Below are positions 16,511 to 61,078 of a DNA stretch of 64,000 bases, piece after piece (the stretch's first letter is position 1; the number at the start of each line of letters is the position of its first letter). The position numbers were made by a program, and so were the translations under genes. The notes under the pieces were generated by a model. It was not told the origin of the DNA and did no database searches. It was given only the letters and a program-made list of their open reading frames with translations. Source of the stretch: Arctopsyche grandis (taxonomy: Eukaryota > Arthropoda > Insecta > Trichoptera > Hydropsychidae); the NCBI RefSeq assembly GCF_051622035.1, contig NC_135360.1, forward strand, positions 33,621,206-33,685,205, read 5' to 3'.

Positions 16511-17603
16511 TCTAATCTATAATTTGGAAAGAGACTTTGTATGTATGTAAGTATCCTTGGTCGTCGTCGTCCGTAGATCGGTGACGTCATCGAACACGTG
16601 ATTCGATTTTTTTTTTTTCGATCCATGGGCGCCGATTTGTTTTTTTCGATTCAATGGATTCACCCCCGCGGGGGCGCAAGGCGAGTAGTTTCATGGGGCC
16701 CCGCCAGGGGCGCTACAAGGGGCGCAGCCCCGTGGGGCCCCGAAGGGGGCCCGGGGGGGCGTAGCCTCATGGGGCGCAGCCCCATGGGGCCCAAAAGGGG
16801 GCGCAGCTTTATGGGGCACAGCCTTATCGGCCGCAGCCTTATGGGGCGCAACCTTATGGGGCGCAGTCTGATGGGGCGCAGCCATATGGGGCGCTGTCTT
16901 ATGGGGCGCAGCCTTAGGGGCGCCGCCTTATGGAGCTTAGCCGCATGGGGCCCCGAAGGGGGCGCAGCCTCATGGGGCGTAGCCTTATGGGGCGCAGTCT
17001 TATGGGGCGCAGTCTTATGGGGCGCAGCCTTATGGGGCGCTGTCTTATGGGGTGCAGCCTTAGGGGCGCAGCCTTATGGGGCGCCGCCTTATGGGGCGCC
17101 GCCTTATGAGGCGCCACCTTATGGGGCGCCGCCTTATGCAGCTTAGCCTTATGGCCCCGAAGGGGGCGCAAGGGGGCGCAGCCTCATGGGGCGCAGCCTC
17201 ATGGGGCGTAGCCTTATGGGGTGCAGTCTTATGGGGCGCAGCCTTATGGGGCGCCGCCTTATGGGGCGCCGCCTTATGGAGCTTAGCCTCGAAGGGGGCG
17301 CATGGGGCCCCGAAGGGGGCGCAGCCTTATGAGGCGAAGCCCTAAACGGCAACTGATCATGGGGGCGAAGCCCTAAACTGCATTTAATCATGGGGGCGCG
17401 GAGGGGCGAAGCCCTAGAAGGCAAAGGCTCAGGGGGGCGCCGAGGGCGAAGCCCTAGAAGGCAAAAAAAAAATTATTTTTTTTTTATTTTTTTTTTTTAT
17501 TTTTTTTTAAATTTTTTTTTTAAATTAAATGTTTACTATTAGCTTAGTCATGTTTAAGCGGTTTATATTATAAATACTGAGCGAAGCCGGGTAATACAGC
17601 TAG
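16511..17603 (+). mobile_element. Non-autonomous Helitron carrying a GC-rich minisatellite
   Basis: The left end is A|TCTAATCTATAATTTGG followed by AAAGAGACTTTGTATG. The right end is GCGAAGCCGGGTAATACAG then CTAG|T. TC at the start, CTAG at the end and insertion between A and T are Helitron hallmarks, and no terminal inverted repeat or duplication is needed. Pieces of the same 5' end occur at about 24149 and, reversed, about 25945. There is no Rep/helicase gene, so it moves, if at all, with an autonomous partner. Confidence 0.7.
16664..17460. repeat. GC-rich minisatellite, 15-17-bp units
   Basis: Many tandem units close to GGGGCGCAGCCTTAT are mixed with variants such as GGGGCGCCGCCTTAT and longer CCCCGAAGGGGGCGC blocks. 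The array is the only strongly GC-rich low-complexity DNA in the window. It produces long chance frames in all directions (repeated MGRSLMGR or IRLRPIRLRP), which are not genes. Confidence 0.9.
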
Positions 17604-33620: not shown

Positions 33621-36455
33621 ATGGAAAAGAGAAGGTATAAATCTGGATCACTAAAACGCAAAGAACGCCAAGAAACAAAAAAACAGAAGTCAGCCAAGTA
33701 TTGCAGATCTATTACAGATTTTATAGTACCACAACCACTTCCCGCATCAATGTCCAGTTGCGCAACAAATAATCAAGAAACAAGAAACAATACTCATGGC
33801 GATGATGTATTGACAAGTGAGTTGCAAGAACAAGAAAGAAATTCTTTGGATATAGAGACAAGAATAAGTGCATCCTATATTAATCAACCCAGGCCCAGTA
33901 CTTCAGGCTTCATTATTCCGGTATCTGTACAGACTATATTTCCTATAGTTGCAACATCCGCGCATATACCTATAGTTTCAACTAGTGACAAGGAATTAGA
34001 TATTACTTCAGACATAAATTCTGAGGCACATGATGTTATTGAACCTACACAAGAAAAAAAATGTACTACTGGAATATTTCAATATCCATCGCGAGACAAT
34101 CTGAAACAATTTTTTGCTGAACATCCATTTCAGCCTGTAAGTGATCTACCATTTGATGCTCGATTATATGAGAGAAACACTATGAATGATTCAGTCCCAA
34201 GAAATTGGCTAACATATAACATAGAAAATAAGTGCTTATATTGTTCATATTGCTTAGCGTTTGAGTGTCCCAAATCGGATTCATCATCATTTGTACATGG
34301 CTTTAGTGACTACAGACGTATTAGCCAGAACTTGGCTGTGCACGAATCGACAACAACCCATGTGCGAAATGTTCATCAATATATCAGTGTGGTTAATAAT
34401 GGAACATTAGATAATTTTTTTGCGTCATCATTAATTCAAAAGAAAGAAAAGGTACTAAAGCAAAGAAGTATTGTCATGAGGATTATAGACATCATAAAGA
34501 TGTTAGGCAAGCAAGCAGTTTCTTTTCGAAGTCACAGAAATGAATCGGCCTATACTCTGGATGATGAAGCTTCGAATCATGGTAATTTTTTGGCTTCAGT
34601 GCAGTTGATGGCAAAATATGACACCATTATAGCAGCTCACGTTTCTGCAGTGCAAAAAAAGTCATATCAAAGAATGAAACGACTTAAGCACCAAGGAAAG
34701 GCGGGAAATAAAGGCCGTGGTGGACTAATTACCTACTTGAGCAAAACAACTGTTAATAGGTTAATCCATATTATGAAAACTATGATTCAAGAAAGAATTA
34801 GTCATGAAGTTTTTGAAGCAAAATATTATTCTATCCAGGTTGATTCAACACAGGATAATACAATCATCGATCAATTTAGCATCATTATTCGGTATGTGCA
34901 TAAAAGCATTGTCTATGAGCGCCTACTTTCAATTGTGCCGTGTAATGATGGTACAGGACAGGGACTTTTTAATTTATTGACTGAAAAGTTGCAACATCTT
35001 AATATTGACCCTAAAAATTGTATATCTGATAGCACCGATGGTGCTGCAAGCTACCATGGAGAGTATAATGGTTTGCAGAGTAAACTTGCTAACATGGCAG
35101 ATCAACATGTTCATATATGGTGTTATGCCCATGTCTTAAATTTGGTAGTAACTGAAACCACAAAATGTTGTGTGTCTGCAGTTTCTTTTTTTAATTTGCT
35201 TCAAAATTTAGCAACTTTTATAAATGGATCATATAAGAGAATGTCTGTGTGGATAGGAGTTGTTGAAAAACAACTGGGGCAAGAAAAGATGAAAAGATTA
35301 AAACTAATTGGTGAAACCAGGTGGTCGGGAAAATCTAATGCAGCAACAACAATATTTGGACATTTTAATGATCCCACTGCTAGTACTTTCGTAAATCTAC
35401 TTACATGCTTATCAATGATACAGGATTCAGACAAGTTTGATGCAAAAACGAAGCACGAAGCCACTTATTTACTCCAGAGTCTTCAAAAGTTTGAAACCAT
35501 ATTGACAGCATTTACTTACTTGTACATATTTGAAACCACAGCCCCCTTGTCTAGTTATTTACAAACAAATTGTTTAGATATGTTTACTGCATGGAGTTTG
35601 GTAGATACAGCAACAACAAAGTTGATGGAACAGAAAAGAACATTCCATAATGTTCACAGTAAGGCTTTCGAATTCGTAACAATATGTAATGATATGATTT
35701 CAATGATTAATATGGATGAAAATCAAACATTGGAAATTGATTCTATAGAAACAGCGTTGCCTGTTAAAAGACAAAGGAAGAAGAAAAGAATGGCAGATGA
35801 AGTAACTAATGATGAAGGAAATTCTTCGGATCCTCTGGCTGATTTTCGAATAACTGTATTTAACCTTATAATGGATCGCATTGTCCAATCGCTACAATCA
35901 CGATTTATACATCACAAGCAGTTGTATAAAGATTTATCTTGGTTGGACCCAGCTAATTTTAAAATTATTGCAGAAAAAGGCCTTGATGATATTGCATTGG
36001 ATGGTGTTGTGAAGTTCTTTCCACTAATCAAAAGAGGCAATGTAAAATTAGAATTGGTTTCATTTGCCTCAAATTTTGATATATTGAAGCTATTACTTCA
36101 AATTAGTGAGAGTGAGGATGACAGCAGCAGCTGTAAAACTTGCAGAACATGTCCATCGTGCGTTTTAAAAATTTTATCGTCGAACAGACTACACGACAAA
36201 GCGTATGATAACCTATATGAATTATACAAAATCGTCTCCACACTCTCAGTTACACAAGTGCAATGTGAGAGGACGTTTTCAAAATTAAAAATAATTAAGA
36301 ACAGACTGAGAAATACGTTGTCTGAAGAAAATTTAGAAAATTTTATGTTCCTTTCTATTGAGAAGCAAATGTTAGATGATTTGGATGCAGAAGAAATTAT
36401 TAACAGATATGCACAAGCGTCGAAAGGACTCAAACGTTTGCTAATATACTCTTAA
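33621..36455 (+). CDS. hAT transposase with TTF-type zinc finger (ZMYM1-like)
   Basis: The 944-aa frame starts at MEKRRYKSGSLKRKERQE, a basic and likely nuclear-targeting N-terminus, with an AG acceptor just upstream. A TTF-type zinc finger lies at about residues 195-250 (NWLTYNIENKCLYCSYCLAF, then HVRNVH). A DUF4371-like RNase-H core follows from about residue 300 to 540: YYSIQVDSTQD with a candidate catalytic Asp, CISDSTDGAASYHG, and the hAT mark CYAHVLNLVV. The C-terminal dimerisation block near 870-930 includes QVQCERTFSKLKIIKNRLRN, the equivalent of the family's A/C-E-R-x-F-S with the catalytic Glu. No stop or frameshift was seen. Proteins of this type are often annotated as zinc finger MYM-type 1 in insect genomes. 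It cuts and pastes the surrounding element. Confidence 0.9.
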   Translation: MEKRRYKSGSLKRKERQETKKQKSAKYCRSITDFIVPQPLPASMSSCATNNQETRNNTHGDDVLTSELQEQERNSLDIETRISASYINQPRPSTSGFIIPVSVQTIFPIVATSAHIPIVSTSDKELDITSDINSEAHDVIEPTQEKKCTTGIFQYPSRDNLKQFFAEHPFQPVSDLPFDARLYERNTMNDSVPRNWLTYNIENKCLYCSYCLAFECPKSDSSSFVHGFSDYRRISQNLAVHESTTTHVRNVHQYISVVNNGTLDNFFASSLIQKKEKVLKQRSIVMRIIDIIKMLGKQAVSFRSHRNESAYTLDDEASNHGNFLASVQLMAKYDTIIAAHVSAVQKKSYQRMKRLKHQGKAGNKGRGGLITYLSKTTVNRLIHIMKTMIQERISHEVFEAKYYSIQVDSTQDNTIIDQFSIIIRYVHKSIVYERLLSIVPCNDGTGQGLFNLLTEKLQHLNIDPKNCISDSTDGAASYHGEYNGLQSKLANMADQHVHIWCYAHVLNLVVTETTKCCVSAVSFFNLLQNLATFINGSYKRMSVWIGVVEKQLGQEKMKRLKLIGETRWSGKSNAATTIFGHFNDPTASTFVNLLTCLSMIQDSDKFDAKTKHEATYLLQSLQKFETILTAFTYLYIFETTAPLSSYLQTNCLDMFTAWSLVDTATTKLMEQKRTFHNVHSKAFEFVTICNDMISMINMDENQTLEIDSIETALPVKRQRKKKRMADEVTNDEGNSSDPLADFRITVFNLIMDRIVQSLQSRFIHHKQLYKDLSWLDPANFKIIAEKGLDDIALDGVVKFFPLIKRGNVKLELVSFASNFDILKLLLQISESEDDSSSCKTCRTCPSCVLKILSSNRLHDKAYDNLYELYKIVSTLSVTQVQCERTFSKLKIIKNRLRNTLSEENLENFMFLSIEKQMLDDLDAEEIINRYAQASKGLKRLLIYS

Positions 36456-47246: not shown

Positions 47247-47875
47247 GATTGGTGCCACTTTAGTATGCGGTCTACCTTCACATATCTACTTTAGTACGCG
47301 ATCTACCTTCACGTTTTTACTTTAATATGTGGTATCACTGTCTCAATTCTAATCTTAAATGAATAGAGCCAACCCTAACTTAACCTAACCTAACCTGACC
47401 CTTAAATAAATAGGTGTTGCTGCTAAGATATGTTTTTTTTTATAATAATAAATAAAACTTAAAAAAAATATATCTTAGCAGCCAACACCTATTTATTTAA
47501 GGGTTAGGTTAGGTTAGGTTAGGTTAAGTTAGAGTTGGCCATATAAAAAACAAAAAATTATAATAAACAGGTCATTGCTACTAACCTAACCTAACCTAAC
47601 CTAACCTAACCTAACCTGACCTTTAAATAAATAGGTGTTGCTGCTAAGATATGTTTTTTTTTATAATAATAAATAAAACTTTAAAAAAAATATATCTTAG
47701 CAGCCAACACCTATTTATTTAAGGGTCAGGTTAGGTTAGGTTAGGTTAAGTTAGAGTTGGCCATATAAAAAACAAAAATTATAATAAACAGGTCATTGCT
47801 ACGATACAAATAGAAAAAAAAAATAGTCGACTGCGATCCAAAGGTAGACCCTATACTAAAGTGGCACCAGATGAT
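47247..47875. repeat. TTAGG-bearing foldback element with two tandem palindromes
   Basis: Outer arms: TGGTGCCACTTTAGTATGCG at the left and its counterpart CTATACTAAAGTGGCACCAG at the right. Inside are two roughly 220-bp tandem units. Each has CCTAA repeats, TAAATAGGTGTTGCTGCTAAG, an A/T centre, CTTAGCAGCCAACACCTATT and TTAGG repeats, then GTTGGCCATATAAAAAAC and ACAGGTCATTGCTAC. The longest pure run is about seven CCTAA units near 47583-47617. TTAGG is the canonical insect telomere repeat. Confidence 0.75.
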
Positions 47876-48091
47876 TTTTAAGTTGTTACAAAACACCTCC
47901 GATTTCAAGCAGTTGCGGTTGCGTGACGAAGCGGCTCTTTTACAAGAGATACTTCTGAAGCACCTATGCTAGACACTTCTACTACAATTTTTAAATATTA
48001 ATGAGCGGAAATATTGAGAAGTGCGGCATCGTTGACCGTGTGTACATAAATCACGAGAGGATGCCCCGTTATATGGGCATTTCAGAGAGTC

Positions 48092-48100
48092 GTATAAAAC
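48092..48100 (+). promoter_or_regulatory. TATA box of the amphipathic-repeat protein gene
   Basis: GTATAAAAC lies 64 bases before the ATG at 48163, a normal distance for a TATA-driven start with a short leader. It supports the choice of 48163 rather than the in-frame ATG at 48001, which would lie upstream of transcription. Confidence 0.6.
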
Positions 48101-48162: not shown

Positions 48163-49338
48163 ATGAAGTCGTGGAGGACATTTGCATTGACCTTATCCCT
48201 GGTCCACTTGGTGATCTCGGCCAGCCTCCCGAAGGACGACGACCAGAGCACTTTCACATCCGAGCTGGGCGAGGGCTTCGCCGTGACTTTCGCCAAGTCC
48301 AAACCAGCTTCCGTTTTGGAAAACCACGACGCAGACATACAAGCAGTAGAACGCATCAACGACGTTCTAGATTCTAAGCCGAAAGAAGAAGAGGTCAATC
48401 TAAAAACGATAGCAGTGAAAGAGGTTGAACCGGTCGAAGCGGCGCCTACCGTTATCTCGCAAGAAGAGCAGATCAAGCAGGAGTCGAATCCAGACCGACC
48501 GACGACACCTGGATTTATCGAAAGTCTCCAAAATGGATTTCAGAACGTCACGAGCGGTATAGCTTCCATAATCAGTCCATCCACCAACGGAACCAACCTA
48601 TTCCAAAACATCCAGCAAGGCGTTCAGCAAAGCATACAAAACCTGAACGAGTCCTTTCAGAACGTGGTCAATCCTCAATCTGACGAAATCGATGGAACAA
48701 CTGCAGCTCCTTCACTCATCCAAGTGGGATTTCAAGCAATTCAAGACTTCCAGCAAGGGGTTCAACAGAATATTCAAAATTTAACCCAAGGAGTCTTAGG
48801 CACCCCACCTTCTAACGACGAGGCCTCTGTACAACCAGGCTTCATCGAGAATTTGCAGACACAATTTTCAAATACGACCACCTTTTTACAGCAGGGTTGG
48901 TCGAACTTGGTCACGAATATTCAATCAGTTGTCAATCCCAGCAATTCAGACAATCCGAATATAATACAAACCATACAAAATGGCGTGCAGAATGTGACTT
49001 CTGGAATTCAAAACGCATTGAGACCACCGACTAATTCCGATACACCCACCAGTAGCAGTAACCCTAATTTCTTTCAAGCGGTTTCAACTATACTATCAGA
49101 ACAAGCAGATAGGGTGAACTCATTTCTAACGAATTTGTTCAGACCTCCATCTGGGACCAACCCACCAGCCGACTCTAAAGCAACAGCGCCATCAAATAAA
49201 TTTAGTCCACCAGCTGATCAGAACGTTCGAGAGCAGTTTCGAGCTGAGATCCAAGCCTTGAACGAGACACTGAACGAAGGTGTTAAGAATATCACGGAAT
49301 ATCTAATGTCGTCAGAATTACGCTTTGTGAAGCCCTAA
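48163..49338 (+). CDS. Secreted amphipathic-repeat protein, 391 aa
   Basis: The intronless frame starts MKSWRTFALTLSLVHLVISA, a clear signal peptide with cleavage near SA|SLPKDDD. An acidic Lys/Glu linker (to about residue 105) is followed by six or so loose repeats of 30-45 residues. Each has a Phe/Ile-headed amphipathic segment and a Pro/Ser/Thr spacer: GFIESLQNGFQNVTSGI, NLFQNIQQGVQQSIQNLNES, GFQAIQDFQQGVQQNIQNL, GFIENLQTQF, NIIQTIQNGVQNVTSGI and NFFQAVSTILSEQADRVNSF. Several N-x-S/T sites (NVT, NES, NLT, NTT) fit secretion and glycosylation. Gln and Asn are very common. No cysteines are seen after the signal. I do not recognise a family; the pattern suggests a lipid- or surface-associated structural or silk/saliva-type protein, which is inference. 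Confidence 0.8.
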   Translation: MKSWRTFALTLSLVHLVISASLPKDDDQSTFTSELGEGFAVTFAKSKPASVLENHDADIQAVERINDVLDSKPKEEEVNLKTIAVKEVEPVEAAPTVISQEEQIKQESNPDRPTTPGFIESLQNGFQNVTSGIASIISPSTNGTNLFQNIQQGVQQSIQNLNESFQNVVNPQSDEIDGTTAAPSLIQVGFQAIQDFQQGVQQNIQNLTQGVLGTPPSNDEASVQPGFIENLQTQFSNTTTFLQQGWSNLVTNIQSVVNPSNSDNPNIIQTIQNGVQNVTSGIQNALRPPTNSDTPTSSSNPNFFQAVSTILSEQADRVNSFLTNLFRPPSGTNPPADSKATAPSNKFSPPADQNVREQFRAEIQALNETLNEGVKNITEYLMSSELRFVKP

Positions 49339-50515
49339 GATTTGGGTCCTGCTTAAATTCGGCTTTTATGTCAAAAAAAAAAAAAATGAAGGCTCTATCG
49401 CTATTTAGTCGCACATTGCCTTTTTAATATATATTTGTATATAATAATAATTTATTATGTATTTATAACATTTTTTTTTAATAATAAATCCAACCTATTA
49501 AAATTCGTATTTATATTATTCAGTACACTTGTTATTAATGTGTGATGTTTATTTCAGATCGTAAAATACTATCGTAAGGAAAAACAATTTGCAATAAAGG
49601 AGATTAAATTAAATTCAGTGTCGTGTTAAAAATACTTTTTTTTAATGTTTTTTAATAATTTGCCGGCATGCAACGAAAATCCATCAACTTTTATAGAAAA
49701 ATAGTTTGCTGTTGGATAATGAAATATCAATCTTTTTTTTTATTATTGTGTCATAAAATCACTTATTTGTTTTTCCTTATAATGAAATCAGTCAAAACTT
49801 TTGAAATCATTTATAATATTTTAAAGATAATATAATGGTGAGTATTATTGAAAATCAATACATTATCATCGTGAATGTTTTATCATATCTATGCACCTAC
49901 TTTAGAAAATAAAGTACAATATAATGATTTTAATGTCATGTCAAAATTTATACCAAAATTATTTCAGTACATCATCATTTTAAAATAGAATATATGTACA
50001 TATATACATATGTATAAGATTTCTTAAATGATAATTTAAAAAAATGCTATTTTCCGAGTATTATTTACTACCTTTTATACTACTTTTAACAATGATATGT
50101 GCTATCAGCACTATTAAGCTTTCCCACCTTTATTTTGCTTTTTGTCATCATTGATTTCGTCGAAATTTATTCGAAATAAAATTATTTATGTAAAATAATA
50201 TTTAATTGATAGTCACATAATAAATTAACCCCTAAAAAGCACATAAATTCAATCAAATATCATTTCGGCTGACAAAATAACAGATGAAAACAGACATGAA
50301 CCTATGTATATAAATAGATCATTATTCGGTTATTAATAGAATTGAAAGCTTTTAGGTTTGTTAAGTTATTGATATCACATACAAGATTAAAAGGTTTATT
50401 TTTATGAATTCAAATGATTGCACTCACAAATGAGGTGGTTACAGTTAGTTGAAGGAAATTTCAGCTTTTTTTCTTAGTTTTTTAATAAAAAATCTTTCTC
50501 CTCATAGATAAAACT
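49339..50515. other. 3' UTR and intergenic AT-rich sequence
   Basis: AATAAA-type signals occur near 49481 and 49911. No other gene or structured repeat was seen before the promoter box of the next gene. Confidence 0.5.
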
Positions 50516-50558
50516 CGCACGCCAATGAAGTTTTACATATACAGCGTAATTCTATAAA
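50516..50558 (+). promoter_or_regulatory. Shared promoter module, copy 1
   Basis: CGCACGCCAATG, an 18-base gap, then GTAATTCTATAAA. The TATA box lies 78 bases before the ATG at 50630. The same pair of boxes precedes the next two genes with gaps of 10 and 12 bases. Confidence 0.7.
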
Positions 50559-50629
50559 GAGCTGACTCTTTCAATTAATCCATGCTTTATAATTTCAACA
50601 TTAGTCTCGTCAATACTTCCAATGTCGAA

Positions 50630-51199
50630 ATGAAGACTACCAATGTAATACTGCTAGTTTCAATTGTGGACTTGGCGACTGCGGGCATATTCGATTTCCA
50701 AACCTTTAGAAATTTTCTAGGATTGGGAAAGAGTAAAGATCCGCCACTTTTAAATGAAAAATCACTGTTGGAGGTCGAAAAGAAGAACGACACCAAAGAA
50801 GATGGAACGGAAACAAAGTTGATACAGACTACAACATATTCCAAAATTTTACGGAAAATCTCATCGAAACGCTTGAAGCCATCAGACGACAAAGATGATT
50901 TGGTGATACCCAAGAGTGAATTCGAGCCGGAGTTGGAGAAATCTCTCAAAAGTCCATTATTAGCGAGATCGGACAATTTTGTCGACCATAAAGAAAACCG
51001 ATCTGAAACGAAAAGCTCGTTTTGGATTAACATTCGAACGATCCTTATGATCGCAATCAAAGTCGTCAATTATTTGATAGGGATTTGCGAAAATATTTTG
51101 GAGATAGGACCGCAAAACAATACAATGTTCAGAACTTTGAAAAATACTGGAACACTTGTGAAGAATTTCGTATTCAAAGGTGTAAAAAGTATTTTATAG
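50630..51199 (+). CDS. Small secreted protein 1 of the tandem cluster, 189 aa
   Basis: Intronless. The start is set at MKTTNVILLVSIVDLATAG, a signal peptide, because the earlier in-frame ATG at 50582 would fall at the transcription start predicted from the TATA box at 50552. The mature N-terminus, GIFDFQTFRNFLGLGK, resembles that of the next gene (GMLDFTKP). The middle is charged and Lys/Glu-rich; the C-terminal third has two hydrophobic amphipathic segments (FWINIRTILMIAIKVVNYLI and LVKNFVFKGVKSIL). No domain was recognised. Context and layout suggest it belongs to one family with the next two genes and is expressed with them. Confidence 0.75.
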   Translation: MKTTNVILLVSIVDLATAGIFDFQTFRNFLGLGKSKDPPLLNEKSLLEVEKKNDTKEDGTETKLIQTTTYSKILRKISSKRLKPSDDKDDLVIPKSEFEPELEKSLKSPLLARSDNFVDHKENRSETKSSFWINIRTILMIAIKVVNYLIGICENILEIGPQNNTMFRTLKNTGTLVKNFVFKGVKSIL

Positions 51200-51565
51200 T
51201 GTTACGTGCTCCTTGTGTGTAAATTAATATTTGTGTTTCGCTAAATAGTTTTAACCCACTCTTTTTGTGTTTCTTGCTGAGCTAATATCCTGTGTCTTGG
51301 TGATTATAATTAGACATGTTATTAATCAATATCATTTAGATGAATCTTCTTCATGACAAGAGATTGAATTGGATGATATTTCAATCTTATAAATATGCCT
51401 ACTATATTATTATTTATATATAATAAGATTCAACTCTCTGAGAAAAAAAATCTGGTTGAACGATTGTATATCATACGGTTCCTAAACTGTGCAATAAATT
51501 ACCAAAAGAATATTTCGTAAATGAAAAAAATTCTTCATTTATTAATATATAAATATTTCCAAGAA
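51200..51565. other. Intergenic spacer in the secreted-protein cluster
   Basis: AT-rich, no gene or structured repeat seen. AATAAA at 51492 may serve the upstream gene. Confidence 0.5.
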
Positions 51566-51602
51566 ATCGTACGCCTATGTATTTGTATTGTAATTCTATA
51601 AA
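51566..51602 (+). promoter_or_regulatory. Shared promoter module, copy 2
   Basis: CGTACGCCTATG, a 10-base gap, then GTAATTCTATAAA, 82 bases before the ATG from the TATA box. The preceding AAGAAATCGTACGCC is nearly identical to copy 3 (AGAAATCGTACGCC). Confidence 0.75.
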
Positions 51603-51677
51603 TGGCAGACATTATCGACGTCCAACCATTTTCTATAGGTTTGTAATTTTGACTATAGTCGCGTTCGTACTGTCACT

Positions 51678-52247
51678 ATGAAGATAATAAGCGTGTTATT
51701 TCTCATTTTATTCGTGGACTGTGCTATAGCGGGCATGTTGGACTTTACAAAACCAGGATTGAAGGAAATTAAAAATATATTTCTACCAAAAAAACAGGAA
51801 CGAAATTTAGACGAAGATCAAATGCCGAATGAGAATTCCAACGTTGTCGTGGAGATTGAAATTCCAAGTACGGCGATCGATCTCATGCCTAGGCAATTGG
51901 ACAACCCAACAAAGACACTCAGTGCTGATAAAATCGATGGTCCACTATCATTCTTCAAAATAATTGCAGAGATCGTCTTAAAACTATTTTTGGAAATTAT
52001 TGAAACTGCCAAGAAGGCGTTTGAAATCGTATTTAACATGATTAAAAACCTGACAGGGATGAATTCACCACCGAATGGCGCAAAAGCTGAAGGAAGTAAA
52101 AGGAAAAGATCAACGGAAGCCTTGATCCTGTCATTACTTTCAAGTAAGGATTTATGGGCACAGATACAAAGTATTATTCCATCTGTGCTAAACGCGTTAC
52201 AACATTTGCAAACGTATCTCAATCAGTTGCTGTCACTGATTCCGTAA
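51678..52247 (+). CDS. Small secreted protein 2, possible peptide precursor, 189 aa
   Basis: Intronless frame starting MKIISVLFLILFVDCAIAG, a strong signal peptide. An acidic/Pro-rich middle is followed by a hydrophobic amphipathic stretch (FFKIIAEIVLKLFLEIIETA, then KKAFEIVFNMIKNLTG). A tetrabasic site, GSKRKRS, comes next. The final 44 residues after KRKR (STEALILSLLSSKDLWAQIQ to NQLLSLIP) are helix-prone and amphipathic, without cysteines. Furin-like cleavage at KRKR could release this peptide. No family was recognised; function in defence, saliva or silk is speculation. The gene shares its promoter module with its two neighbours. Confidence 0.8.
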   Translation: MKIISVLFLILFVDCAIAGMLDFTKPGLKEIKNIFLPKKQERNLDEDQMPNENSNVVVEIEIPSTAIDLMPRQLDNPTKTLSADKIDGPLSFFKIIAEIVLKLFLEIIETAKKAFEIVFNMIKNLTGMNSPPNGAKAEGSKRKRSTEALILSLLSSKDLWAQIQSIIPSVLNALQHLQTYLNQLLSLIP

Positions 52248-52793
52248 TCCTATATGTAAATTAGTGATCATATTCTTATATTATATACTATTAAACAAAC
52301 AATTATTGTATGTACATATATATATGTTAGTCAATTTCGTCTTGAAAACTGACCCAACAATTTTGATAAAATTATTCTTACCACCCTTTCAGATATAAAA
52401 ATCAACTTAAATTGAACTCGACTCCAATAATTTAGAATGAATTTTAAGTTAAAATGAATAATTTAATCAATTATTCATACAAATTGAAGAAAAAAACGCT
52501 ATTTATAAAGCAGTAATACACAATGAACTTATATTGTAAAAAAGCCACTACCAACCTGACAAATTATCGGAGATAGAATGTTGATGTTGAAAATAAATAA
52601 AAATATAAATTTTTAAAATAGTTTTGTATGTATGTATGTCCTTGTCCTTGGCTCTGTTTATCGATCAAATGTAATGATTGGATTTAAAATACGTTTTTGA
52701 AATTTCTAAATAGAAATGACAATCATAGAAAGTAGAATTTGAAGTTAAACACAAATAAATAATATGAGAAGTTTATTAAATTTATTTTACAGA
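52248..52793. other. Intergenic spacer in the secreted-protein cluster
   Basis: AT-rich, with a short TATG microsatellite near 52626. No gene seen. Confidence 0.5.
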
Positions 52794-52834
52794 AATCGTA
52801 CGCCAATGTTATTATTTGTCGTAATCATATAAAG
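52794..52834 (+). promoter_or_regulatory. Shared promoter module, copy 3
   Basis: ATCGTACGCCAATG, a 12-base gap, then GTAATCATATAAA. The TATA box lies 46 bases before the ATG at 52874. Confidence 0.75.
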
Positions 52835-52873
52835 GTTTGTCAATAAACAATTACTGGTCATTTTCCATTCATC

Positions 52874-53167
52874 ATGAAGATTGTGAGCGTGTTACTTATT
52901 CTTTCATTCGTCGACTTCAGTACTCCAAGTCTGTACGATATCAGACGAAAGGTCATACAATATTTGGATGAAATTTCTCAAAAACCGTTCCAAGACAATT
53001 TGTTAATGGAGGCTACAGATAAGAATACTACAGAGAACAATGGAATGGATAGCACAGTTAAGAATGGATTGAATACCACGAAAATACTGTCTGTCAATAA
53101 CACAGTCCAAAGAGCTTCAAAACAACACATAGTTGCCAGAAGCGTGCGACCTAGATTTTTCTTTTAA
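52874..53167 (+). CDS. Small secreted protein 3 of the tandem cluster, 97 aa
   Basis: Intronless frame starting MKIVSVLLILSFVDFSTPS, a signal peptide close to that of the preceding gene (MKIISVLFLILFVDCAIAG). The mature part begins LYDIRRKVIQYLDEI and is rich in Asn and Thr with several N-x-T sites. It ends ARSVRPRFFF, a basic tail like an amidation-free neuropeptide or simply a truncated member of the family. It is much shorter than the other two and lacks their hydrophobic C-terminal segments. Confidence 0.7.
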   Translation: MKIVSVLLILSFVDFSTPSLYDIRRKVIQYLDEISQKPFQDNLLMEATDKNTTENNGMDSTVKNGLNTTKILSVNNTVQRASKQHIVARSVRPRFFF

Positions 53168-54332
53168 TAGGAATAAATTCATAAATTTTCTTCAAATCTG
53201 TTTGGATGGGACCAGCCATGGTGTGGACATTTTAAAAAAGCTACTTGCATTAGGTTTGGTTGAATAAATAGACTAATTCGTACGAAGGAATCTGATGAAA
53301 TAGAAAATAATAACTATATGGATTATAATAATTAGCAGCTTCAAAACTTAAATGTATACTGATACCATTAGCAATTATAAAAAATCTATGTATTGAATGA
53401 TTTTTTTCAAGGGGAAAAAATATAATGCTTTTATTGTGCGAGTCACGAGTTAAAATAAACTGTCCGATAAAATTAATTCAATAAACAAATAATAAATGGT
53501 TTATTGAATTTATTCGTTTCGAGAATACAGCCGTAAAATTAAAAATAATGTAATGAATTTTAGCCTTCATCATTCCCAAGATTTTCATTTTTACTCAATT
53601 TGGGGTAATTTACTTGAGTTTCACCACCCCCGAACTATACATAAAATGAAGAAGCATATATTTTTAAATTAGATAATTTAGTTTGTGGAAACATATTTTC
53701 CGACAAAATTTTTGTATATATGATATTTTAAATAAACGAAAAAAAGTTTACTAGTTTAATCATTTTTATATTTTCAAATCCTCTTTTTTTATAAGTGACA
53801 CAACAATTCACTGTCTAATATTTTAAACTTAAATCCTTTTTTCCCTTAATGTATATATAAAAATTCATTTGTATCAATTATATCAAGTATAAACAAATGA
53901 TTATCATATTCAAATTTTCCCTTCTTTCCCTAGTTTTCCCTCCATTTCTTAAATCCTGGGTTTTCTACTTTCACACAATGTATATGTAGAATATTAATCT
54001 ACCACCAATTTGGCATTAGTGTATTATTTTTATCCATGTAGCCAACGACTGTAATCATTTTTTAATTTAATTTCCTCTATTTTAAATCGAAATTCAATTT
54101 TGTACGCTGGCAACACCAACTCGAATCGACGTGTTTGTTCGAATGACAGCTTGAGGTTAAGTCTTATTAGATTTTACAAACGTCACGTAGGCTGCTGGCA
54201 GTCTCCATCATCACTTTGGTAACCCATTTTTGACATAATACTCAAACAACACTCGATCCCCAAATCAACGAGCTCCGAAAATCATTTTGACACATCTCCA
54301 ATCCCTAACCTCAAATACAAACATTTACAGTC
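53168..54332. other. Intergenic region leading to the BTB-BACK gene
   Basis: AT-rich to about 54090, then moderate GC (54100-54332), which probably holds the promoter and 5' UTR of the next gene. No other gene was recognised. Confidence 0.45.
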
Positions 54333-58091: not shown

Positions 58092-61078
58092 ACATTGTCG
58101 AAAGAATTAACGCCGTAGTATTTGTTTGGTTTGTATGTTATTCAACTTTTGGTCAATATTTAAACGGTCAGTGCATATTTATTTGTATATAATGGACAGT
58201 ATTTAAGCTTGTCTTTATCTGAAAGTATGAGCATTTAATGTTTATACTGCTCGTTTCGTAATTATATAAAATATTTGCCATTTAAATCAATAGAAGTCAT
58301 AGTTTAACCCTTTGGCGGCCAATCTACTATATATCACTGTTTATGGTTTGGTCCAAGACTGCTAAGCATATCGTCGATGATCTCATAAATAGGAAAAGAT
58401 TCAATCATTGGGTAGTAAACATCTGTCAAGGTGTTGAAAACACCTTTTGGGAATTATAAATATTTCAAATTCATTATTTAACTAACATTTTGAATATTTG
58501 CTTATTTAAAAGAGGACTAATTTCTAATTAAAAGACAGGGTATATATGCATTGAAATAAATATAAATTATAATTATATAAAATACAAATGGATAAAATAT
58601 GATACTGATTTTGGTAGGTAAATAATAATCAAATACTAATTGAATGAAATACCTATGAAAGTATGCTTAAAAACGTTCGTATGCATTCATTTTGATCGAA
58701 TTATTATATGTAGATACGTTCTGATATTATTTAATAAACCAAAGTTTTCGTCTAACTTTAGTTCAGATTTAATGCAGATAGGGATACTTTAAAAGAAGTA
58801 CATTGATTATATATAGATTTGTCGGAAGATCATGGACAGAGACCTTACCTCGGCCACCAAAGGGTTAGGATTATAATATTATATGATATATATTTTTTTT
58901 AATTTTGATATAACATGCATTGCAATTGGAAGTGTGACTGTCAGCTGAAAAAAAGGCCCGTTCCTAGAGTTGGTAATTTTTAAAGGTCAGTTTATTTCAA
59001 TGAATGGTAAGTAGCTTACGAAACTTTTGTGATATTAGTTTACTAGATCTTATATATAAAGTAAAGACCATTTTTTGTGTGTTTGTAATTCGTTTCTGAT
59101 TGGCTATAATTAAATATTAATTCAAATAAATTCAATAAAAATAAAACAAATGAATGTTACTAATACATTAGCCATGTTTAAGTGGTTTATATTTCAAATA
59201 GCATTAGTATATTTGTATATAAAAATGAATGTATTTTTTGACATACAGACAATCGCCAAACTGTCAATGACCGATAGTATAACTTACTGACCAAATAAAT
59301 ACAGGCTGTTGACGAAAGACATGACGAAATGAACTCATCTGCTATCTGATCGATTGTTGATCATATCGATGTGTGTTGTTTGAGTCCGATTTGCCATGTG
59401 TTTTCATCTGGTATTGGGTCTAAGACACTCCAATAATTATGAATTATCCAATGGATAAGATTGAACTGATCGTTTACCCAATGGGTATTTATAAAAAACG
59501 ATCAGTTGTAAAATAAGAACACTTGGCGGCGGGACTAGTCGATATTTTTGTTCTTATTTTGAAACGACTACGTATATGAGGCTGTAGTCGGCAATGTTTG
59601 TGATATGATTGCCGATCTGACGAGGCTGTTATTTTTGTATGTTATACATATGTATTTTTTAGGTTGACGTGCTATTTTATATCGTTTTCAATAACTTTTT
59701 ATTTTCTAATTGCACGTTTTAGTGTTTAATTTTGCATTTTTCATATTGAAATAATTATCTATTTGAATGCTATTGATGTGTAAATCAAATGTAATGAATC
59801 TCATCAATTTATAATTACCAATTTAATATATAAGAAACACTATGTTGATGTTTTAATCATACTTTTTTTTCTTTATAAGGAAAATCTTTCCAATCTATGA
59901 TTTTTTTTAATACTTGGTATGTTTTAATGAAATAAATTTTAATCAAACTATACATGTTTTAATTTTTAAATTTATTGTAAAATATTTCCAACTTCACATC
60001 CTTTTAATCCTCGGTTGTTTGTTTTTAAAATTAATATTGAATAAAATGGAACACAGTCTCATTTTTTTCATTTTATTTATTTTGTGTAGTTTTTCATTTT
60101 TTATAATAATTGGTGAAGTAGGTACAATAAGATACCTGTTTTTTTTTTATTAATATTTTTGTAAATCATTTTTCCCTTAATAGTAAGGCTATAAATTAAT
60201 TAATAATTGATAAATTTATTAATCATAGCTATACTTATCGTACTACATATTCATATAATTAATTTTACAATTCTACATATTACATTTGATGATAATCGCT
60301 AGTACGAAATAAAATTATAAACATAAATAGTTAAAAAGTACAAAAAAAAGTTCATCTTTTAATATTAAAACAACACAATATGAGTATATAAAATCGATCA
60401 CTTGTAACGGTGATTTTTTTAAATTACTTTTTATGAATATAAAATGCTTAAGCTCGATAGAAAGAAAAAATCTTTCAATTTATATGATGATTATATGAAG
60501 TATTTTCATTGTACAAAATTATTTTTAAATAATGCGTGTCGAAAGTTCATGTATAATACAATGTAATGAATTGTGAGGTTAAAAAAATGCTTTTAATAAT
60601 ATAAATAAATCAAATGATCGCATCGCAGATATAAACAATGAAGTTTTCAACGCATTCAACATTAAAACATATCTAATTATTATAAAAAGATTCTTTGGTG
60701 GAACTAAACAATATTAATAATACAAAAAAGCTAAGAATACATAATTACCTAGAGTATATGTAATGTGGTTTGTCATCGTTTATTTATTAATAGAGATCAA
60801 ATTTTTATAAAAAGTATAACGTATTCCAATCATATATGAAAGATCTTTTACAATTTTAAATGTATAATACATCTGCTGTAGGTTTCGTGCAGTTTAATTT
60901 TGGAGATAACGAGTATTGTGTATGTTTCTAATAATATGTAGTTCTATAAATGCAAAAAAATCCGATGTTTATAGCAATTGTATGTATTATACTACTAAAG
61001 AAGTGAAATTACATCATTGATTTTAGACTGTTGATACTACTGTTAAGGTAAGGTATCAACAGAGGTACTGTAAGGTAT
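58092..61078. other. Gene-poor AT-rich region
   Basis: Follows the BTB-BACK gene; AATAAA-type signals are frequent. A TATATAAAAATGAATG stretch at about 59216 resembles Helitron 5' ends but has no partner. The 79-codon frame at 59914-60153 is AT-driven and hydrophobic by composition. No supported gene or RNA. Confidence 0.5.

Follow-up and report, generated by a model that had tools for sequence, protein, structure and literature searches.

Three tandem genes for putative secreted proteins in Arctopsyche grandis share two short promoter boxes

The locus and its gene models

The window analyzed in the current work is the whole stretch of 64,000 nucleotides (64 kb). It contains a hAT transposase open reading frame (ORF), a reverse transcriptase ORF, a BTB/BACK gene and repeats of the CCTAA/TTAGG type, together with three tandem genes that have signal-peptide-like starts (genes 1, 2 and 3; Table 1). 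A neighboring gene of secreted type, which is not a member of this family and is referred to below by its start at 48163, served as a local control.

Several other features of the window can be described briefly. The hAT-type ORF (33621-36455; Dimer_Tnp_hAT, E 2.4e-7) runs uninterrupted for 944 codons, and the element is possibly young. A G+C-rich minisatellite at 16756-17279, consisting of about 35 copies of the 15-base unit GGGGCGCAGCCTTAT, is located amid A+T-rich DNA. At 47374-47802 a unit of 221 bases is tandemly duplicated (1.9 copies), with CCTAA and TTAGG runs in opposite orientations, which recalls telomere-type repeats arranged as a foldback.

Table 1. Coordinates of the three tandem genes, their promoter boxes and the control gene (positions within the window)
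Feature	Position	Strand	Description
Gene 1	50630..51199	+	189 aa; signal-peptide-like start followed by a charged linker and a C-terminal pair of helices predicted with low confidence
Gene 2	51678..52247	+	189 aa; signal-peptide-like start followed by a linker; helices predicted with low confidence at 90-125 and 157-187
Gene 3	52874..53167	+	97-aa ORF; signal-peptide-like start
Neighboring secreted-type gene	48163..49338	+	391 aa; local control, not a family member
Box 1, gene 1	50515..50527	+	TCGCACGCCAATG
Box 1, gene 2	51567..51579	+	TCGTACGCCTATG
Box 1, gene 3	52796..52808	+	TCGTACGCCAATG
Box 2 (extended TATA), gene 1	50546..50558	+	GTAATTCTATAAA
Box 2 (extended TATA), gene 2	51590..51602	+	GTAATTCTATAAA
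Box 2 (extended TATA), gene 3	52821..52833	+	GTAATCATATAAA

The ORF listed for gene 1 begins at an earlier in-frame ATG, at 50582; the start was taken at 50630 because it matches the starts of the other two genes. The G+C content of genes 1-3 is 0.37-0.38, versus 0.24 in sampled surrounding noncoding DNA. All three genes had been described as intronless in the initial annotation. Splice-like sites were scored with approximate donor and acceptor consensus frequencies, taken from general knowledge, and each was given a percentile among the GT and AG sites at positions 40001-63900. On this scale the description is safest for gene 1, in which the highest percentiles, 90.0 for donors and 94.7 for acceptors, stay below 95, and less safe for genes 2 and 3, which contain high-ranking sites. 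In gene 2, a donor-like site at 52144 and an acceptor-like site whose end is at 52392 reach percentiles 99.2 and 99.5, respectively, and would make an alternative spliced 3' end possible. In gene 3, an acceptor-like site of percentile 99.2 ends at 53170, three bases beyond the stop codon, and the donors in the phase that would lead into the other frame are weak (best 76.0). Gene 3 may be spliced, frameshifted or truly short, and its 3' end is uncertain. A second frame is open through and beyond the stop codon of gene 3, between about 53133 and 53264, and its translation looks helix-prone.

The signal peptides of genes 1-3 were judged from hydrophobicity: in the hydrophobic stretch that follows MK, the best 11-residue Kyte-Doolittle means are 2.77, 3.46 and 3.11, respectively. 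When the proteins were compared by BLASTP in a database of four sequences, genes 1 and 3 aligned over residues 1-74 (25.7% identity; E 4e-5 in one direction and 8e-5 in the other), genes 1 and 2 over residues 1-23 (47.8% identity; E 4e-4), and genes 2 and 3 over residues 1-34 (32.4% identity; E 6e-4 and 1e-3). Because of these links, the chains can be regarded as diverged yet not wholly unrelated.

Pfam gave no match at cut-off for the three proteins, only two weak ones (E 0.021 and 0.19), and a three-sequence profile returned 0 matches up to E 1 among PDB sequences. Mean pLDDT values from structure prediction were 47.0 for gene 1 and 44.3 for gene 2, too low for a fold search. In the low-confidence model of gene 1, an unstructured linker is followed by helices 128-159 and 165-188 in the C-terminal half; in that of gene 2, likewise of low confidence, a linker of the same kind precedes the two helices listed in Table 1, between which lie a basic KRKRS stretch and a short helix (145-154). 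Helical-moment scans placed amphipathic segments in the C-terminal helix regions of both, and so far as these models go, the products of genes 1 and 2 could reasonably be guessed to be secreted proteins with amphipathic helices. The product of the 48163 gene has a net charge of -20, no cysteine and repeated amphipathic segments such as IQNGVQNVTSGIQ; its only Pfam match is a sub-threshold one to apolipophorin-III (E 0.14).

A tblastn search of the window for further family members found none that was convincing outside the three genes, where the best E value was 0.024 (gene 2 query, in A+T-rich DNA at 49668). Viral relatives of gene 1, gene 2 and the 48163 gene were not found in viral_contigs, gene 2 had no match in phages, and no RNA family was detected in the window at gathering thresholds.

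Two boxes ahead of each gene

Two boxes separated by 10-18 bases had been noted ahead of all three genes, and this was confirmed: the boxes stand in the same order in each gene, with gaps of 18, 10 and 12 bases in genes 1, 2 and 3. The consensus of box 1 over the three genes is TCG(C/T)ACGCC(A/T)ATG and that of box 2 is GTAAT(T/C)(C/A)TATAAA, and in each box 11 of the 13 columns are identical in all three genes. The spacers between the boxes differ in both length and sequence.

The conservation of box 1 is not random. In a comparison of the 400-base upstream regions, in which the motif was not assumed beforehand, the best ungapped three-way 13-mer was exactly box 1, with a score of 24.7 bits. 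This score was reached by none of 152 simulated third-order Markov triplets (mean 16.8, maximum 20.4 bits) and by none of 120 triplets drawn from real window DNA outside the gene region (mean 16.7, maximum 19.4 bits); Gumbel extrapolation from the window triplets gives about 2e-6. The same procedure yielded 17.3 bits in the DNA after the three stop codons. When box 1 was masked, the best three-way match was another word of 18.8 bits, within the null tail, and when both boxes were masked the best word scored 16.2 bits.

Taken singly, the two motifs differ in weight. The core ACGCCWATG, searched on both strands, matches the window three times, each time in box 1 of one of genes 1-3; in 100 shuffles the mean was 0.50, with at least three matches in 4, and the short core by itself is only moderately unusual. 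Most of box 2 is a TATA box, and its degenerate form has a fourth exact match, without box 1, at 58258; alone, it is not distinctive and is weak evidence. The combined pattern ACGCCWATG N5-30 TATAAA occurs 3 times in the window versus 0.019 expected, an expectation derived from 12 matches in 40 Mb of third-order Markov DNA (about 0.3 per Mb). On the combined strength of the Markov triplets, the window triplets and this two-part expectation, chance was rejected as the origin of box 1. In a scan of both strands of the window with a two-box weight matrix, the three sites scored 38.9-40.7, with 17.1 for the runner-up; as these three sites had also supplied the matrix, the scan shows only the absence of a further good copy in the window.

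A mobile element carrying the boxes is not favored, since the window contains no further strong two-box copy and there is no homology upstream of box 1. The two-box pattern had 0 matches in viral_contigs. Among the literature matches listed for the box word ACGCCAATG, no title concerned a comparable promoter element, which does not amount to absence from print. One more word, TATAGGTTTGTAA / TAAAGGTTTGTCA, is common to genes 2 and 3, at 51634-51646 and 52830-52842; it begins 44 bases ahead of the ATG in both genes, and the gene 3 copy overlaps the TATA box.

The control gene bears on the specificity of box 1. Its product also has a signal-peptide-like start, taken at the second in-frame ATG cluster (the longest ORF begins at 48001), and a TATAAAA was read by eye at 48093-48099. 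The three-way triplet comparison revealed no comparable box 1 upstream of this gene: the three triplets that included its upstream DNA scored 15.7, 16.3 and 17.9 bits, which is the null level, and in two of them the top-scoring word coincided with box 1 of the other genes, its counterpart at the 48163 gene being a poor match no better than the null. A strongly decayed relative of box 1 may be present there.

These results also bear on the idea of box 1 as a proximal promoter element in general use in this genome, such as one of CCAAT or GC-box type, tied neither to secreted-protein genes nor to a tissue. Genes 1 and 3 carry CCAATG within box 1, which resembles a CCAAT box, and the ACGCC of box 1 resembles part of a GC/KLF-type box. 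However, gene 2 has CCTATG, which breaks the CCAAT box, no other exact ACGCCWATG occurs in the 64 kb, and the TATA promoter of the 48163 gene is without a comparable site. A general element is considered improbable.

Where the conservation lies and what may maintain it

Corresponding segments of the three genes were aligned for pairs 1-2, 2-3 and 1-3 (values below in that order), each alignment being compared with 200 letter shuffles. The 200-base stretch upstream of box 1 gave z scores of 0.3, 0.9 and -0.1, and the 201 bases after the stop codon gave 0.3, -0.4 and 1.0. Between these limits, the segment from box 1 to the TATA box (8.0, 7.7, 6.9) and the signal-peptide code (8.4, 8.1, 6.1; 59-65% of aligned bases kept) are conserved, the 5' leader gave 3.8, 0.2 and 1.3, and the remaining coding DNA (2.6, 1.1, 0.6) is barely alignable. 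As judged from these alignments, the homology spans the proximal promoter and the signal peptide, plus the leader between genes 1 and 2.

The initial annotation had regarded the intergenic DNA as unrelated, which holds for the flanks upstream of box 1 and after the stop codon, whereas the leaders of genes 1 and 2 are related. Its picture of conserved signal peptides followed by diverged mature chains also stands in the main (z 6.1-8.4 versus 0.6-2.6), apart from the weak similarity of genes 1 and 3 up to about residue 74. As for its interpretation, a fast-evolving secreted family of one gland under a shared promoter whose first box may bind a tissue-specific factor, part can be retained: the module of two boxes is genuinely shared, and no comparable box 1 precedes the 48163 gene. 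The label "fast-evolving" may equally mean "old", because the noncoding flanks look unrelated too.

The boxes might be leftovers of shared descent, carried by duplicates too young for the promoter and signal peptide to have diverged fully, in which case no special factor would be needed. The genes do share descent, the leaders of genes 1 and 2 can be aligned as well, and the remaining coding DNA of this pair is slightly above chance; yet the flanks look unrelated on both sides and the spacers differ in length, while each box has kept nearly all of its columns identical. Such an origin seems unlikely. Gene conversion, which has been proposed for Hessian fly SSSGP clusters (PMC2955719), could homogenize the promoter and the 5' end, and both the tandem arrangement and the concentration of conservation at the 5' side would suit it. 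Conversion tracts, however, would carry the spacers and leaders too, whose lengths and largely sequences differ, and homogenization is absent from the 3' regions; conversion is very unlikely here. Because the spacers differ and the flanks look unrelated, selection on the boxes would explain the pattern better than recent duplication or conversion, and constraint is the better reading that we infer from three sites at one locus.

Under this reading of constraint, old duplications of one ancestor would have produced three tandem genes for small secreted proteins. Each gene would have kept a compact proximal promoter, in which the TATA box is embedded in GTAATYMTATAAA as its context and a 13-base element of higher G+C content, TCGYACGCCWATG, is placed 10-18 bases upstream of that context. 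The element would bind one sequence-specific activator that cooperates with the TATA-bound machinery, and the binding of this activator would lead to expression of the three genes in the same cells. It is moderately likely that genes 1-3 represent an old tandem family in which the proximal promoter and signal peptide were kept while the mature chain diverged. Similar moderate confidence is given to selection keeping the boxes, to binding of a factor and to co-expression of the three genes, as suggested by the sequence. Shared expression probably follows from the kept promoter.

A further reading, tentative and rather doubtful, is that TCGYACGCCWATG and the extended TATA box may together form a compact promoter code that is specific to a gland and read by an activator not yet described, marking a wider set of lineage-specific secreted-protein genes in this genome. 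If such a code were real, a previously unknown secretome could be listed from DNA alone. More generally, if the module marks co-expressed secreted genes, a motif search of the genome would by itself, with no need of RNA data, list the changing secretome of a gland, and the differing spacers of three natural promoters would reveal which bases matter. Otherwise, the locus simply adds another small cluster of genes for orphan secreted proteins.

Comparison with known secreted-protein clusters

A gene cluster with kept switch sequences is of a familiar kind. Tandem secreted-protein families of this kind combine same-strand paralogues that have related signal peptides with a promoter more conserved than the mature-coding DNA, and both features were found here (z 6.9-8.0 for the promoter versus 0.6-2.6).

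Two partial parallels come from other insects. In the pea aphid KQY cassette effector family, a conserved signal-peptide region is likewise followed by a divergent remainder; the divergent parts of KQY derive from miniature exons (PMC7495047), whereas gene 1 is a single uninterrupted ORF. The AgAcp34A male accessory gland genes of Anopheles gambiae are also three paralogous secreted-protein genes, located in one chromosomal division and studied as products of one gland. The third AgAcp34A paralogue shares 68-78% identity with the other two, and the family is presumably homogenized by conversion and unequal crossing-over (PMC3199272); in contrast, the mature chains of genes 1-3 are hardly alignable.

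The nearest printed case found is the SSSGP-1 cluster of the Hessian fly (Mayetiola destructor), which is cited as a likeness without a claim of membership, the 3' conservation of SSSGP genes being absent here. This cluster contains seven genes; in six of them the mature region is diversified while the promoter, UTRs, signal peptide and intron are conserved; one SSSGP group is without introns (PMC2955719). Both are small tandem clusters of secreted-protein genes with a conserved promoter and signal-peptide code and diversified mature chains. The extent of conservation differs, however: SSSGP group averages for the 5'-UTR and signal-peptide code are between 80 and 97 (PMC2955719), whereas genes 1-3 keep only short promoter boxes and 59-65% of signal-peptide bases, and the 3' DNA, in contrast to the conserved 3'-UTR of SSSGP genes, is at chance level in all three pairs. 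In the same source, SSSGP-1 genes with more similar promoters are generally more similar in expression pattern (PMC2955719). By analogy, this correspondence supports the view that shared promoters in such clusters may mean shared expression.
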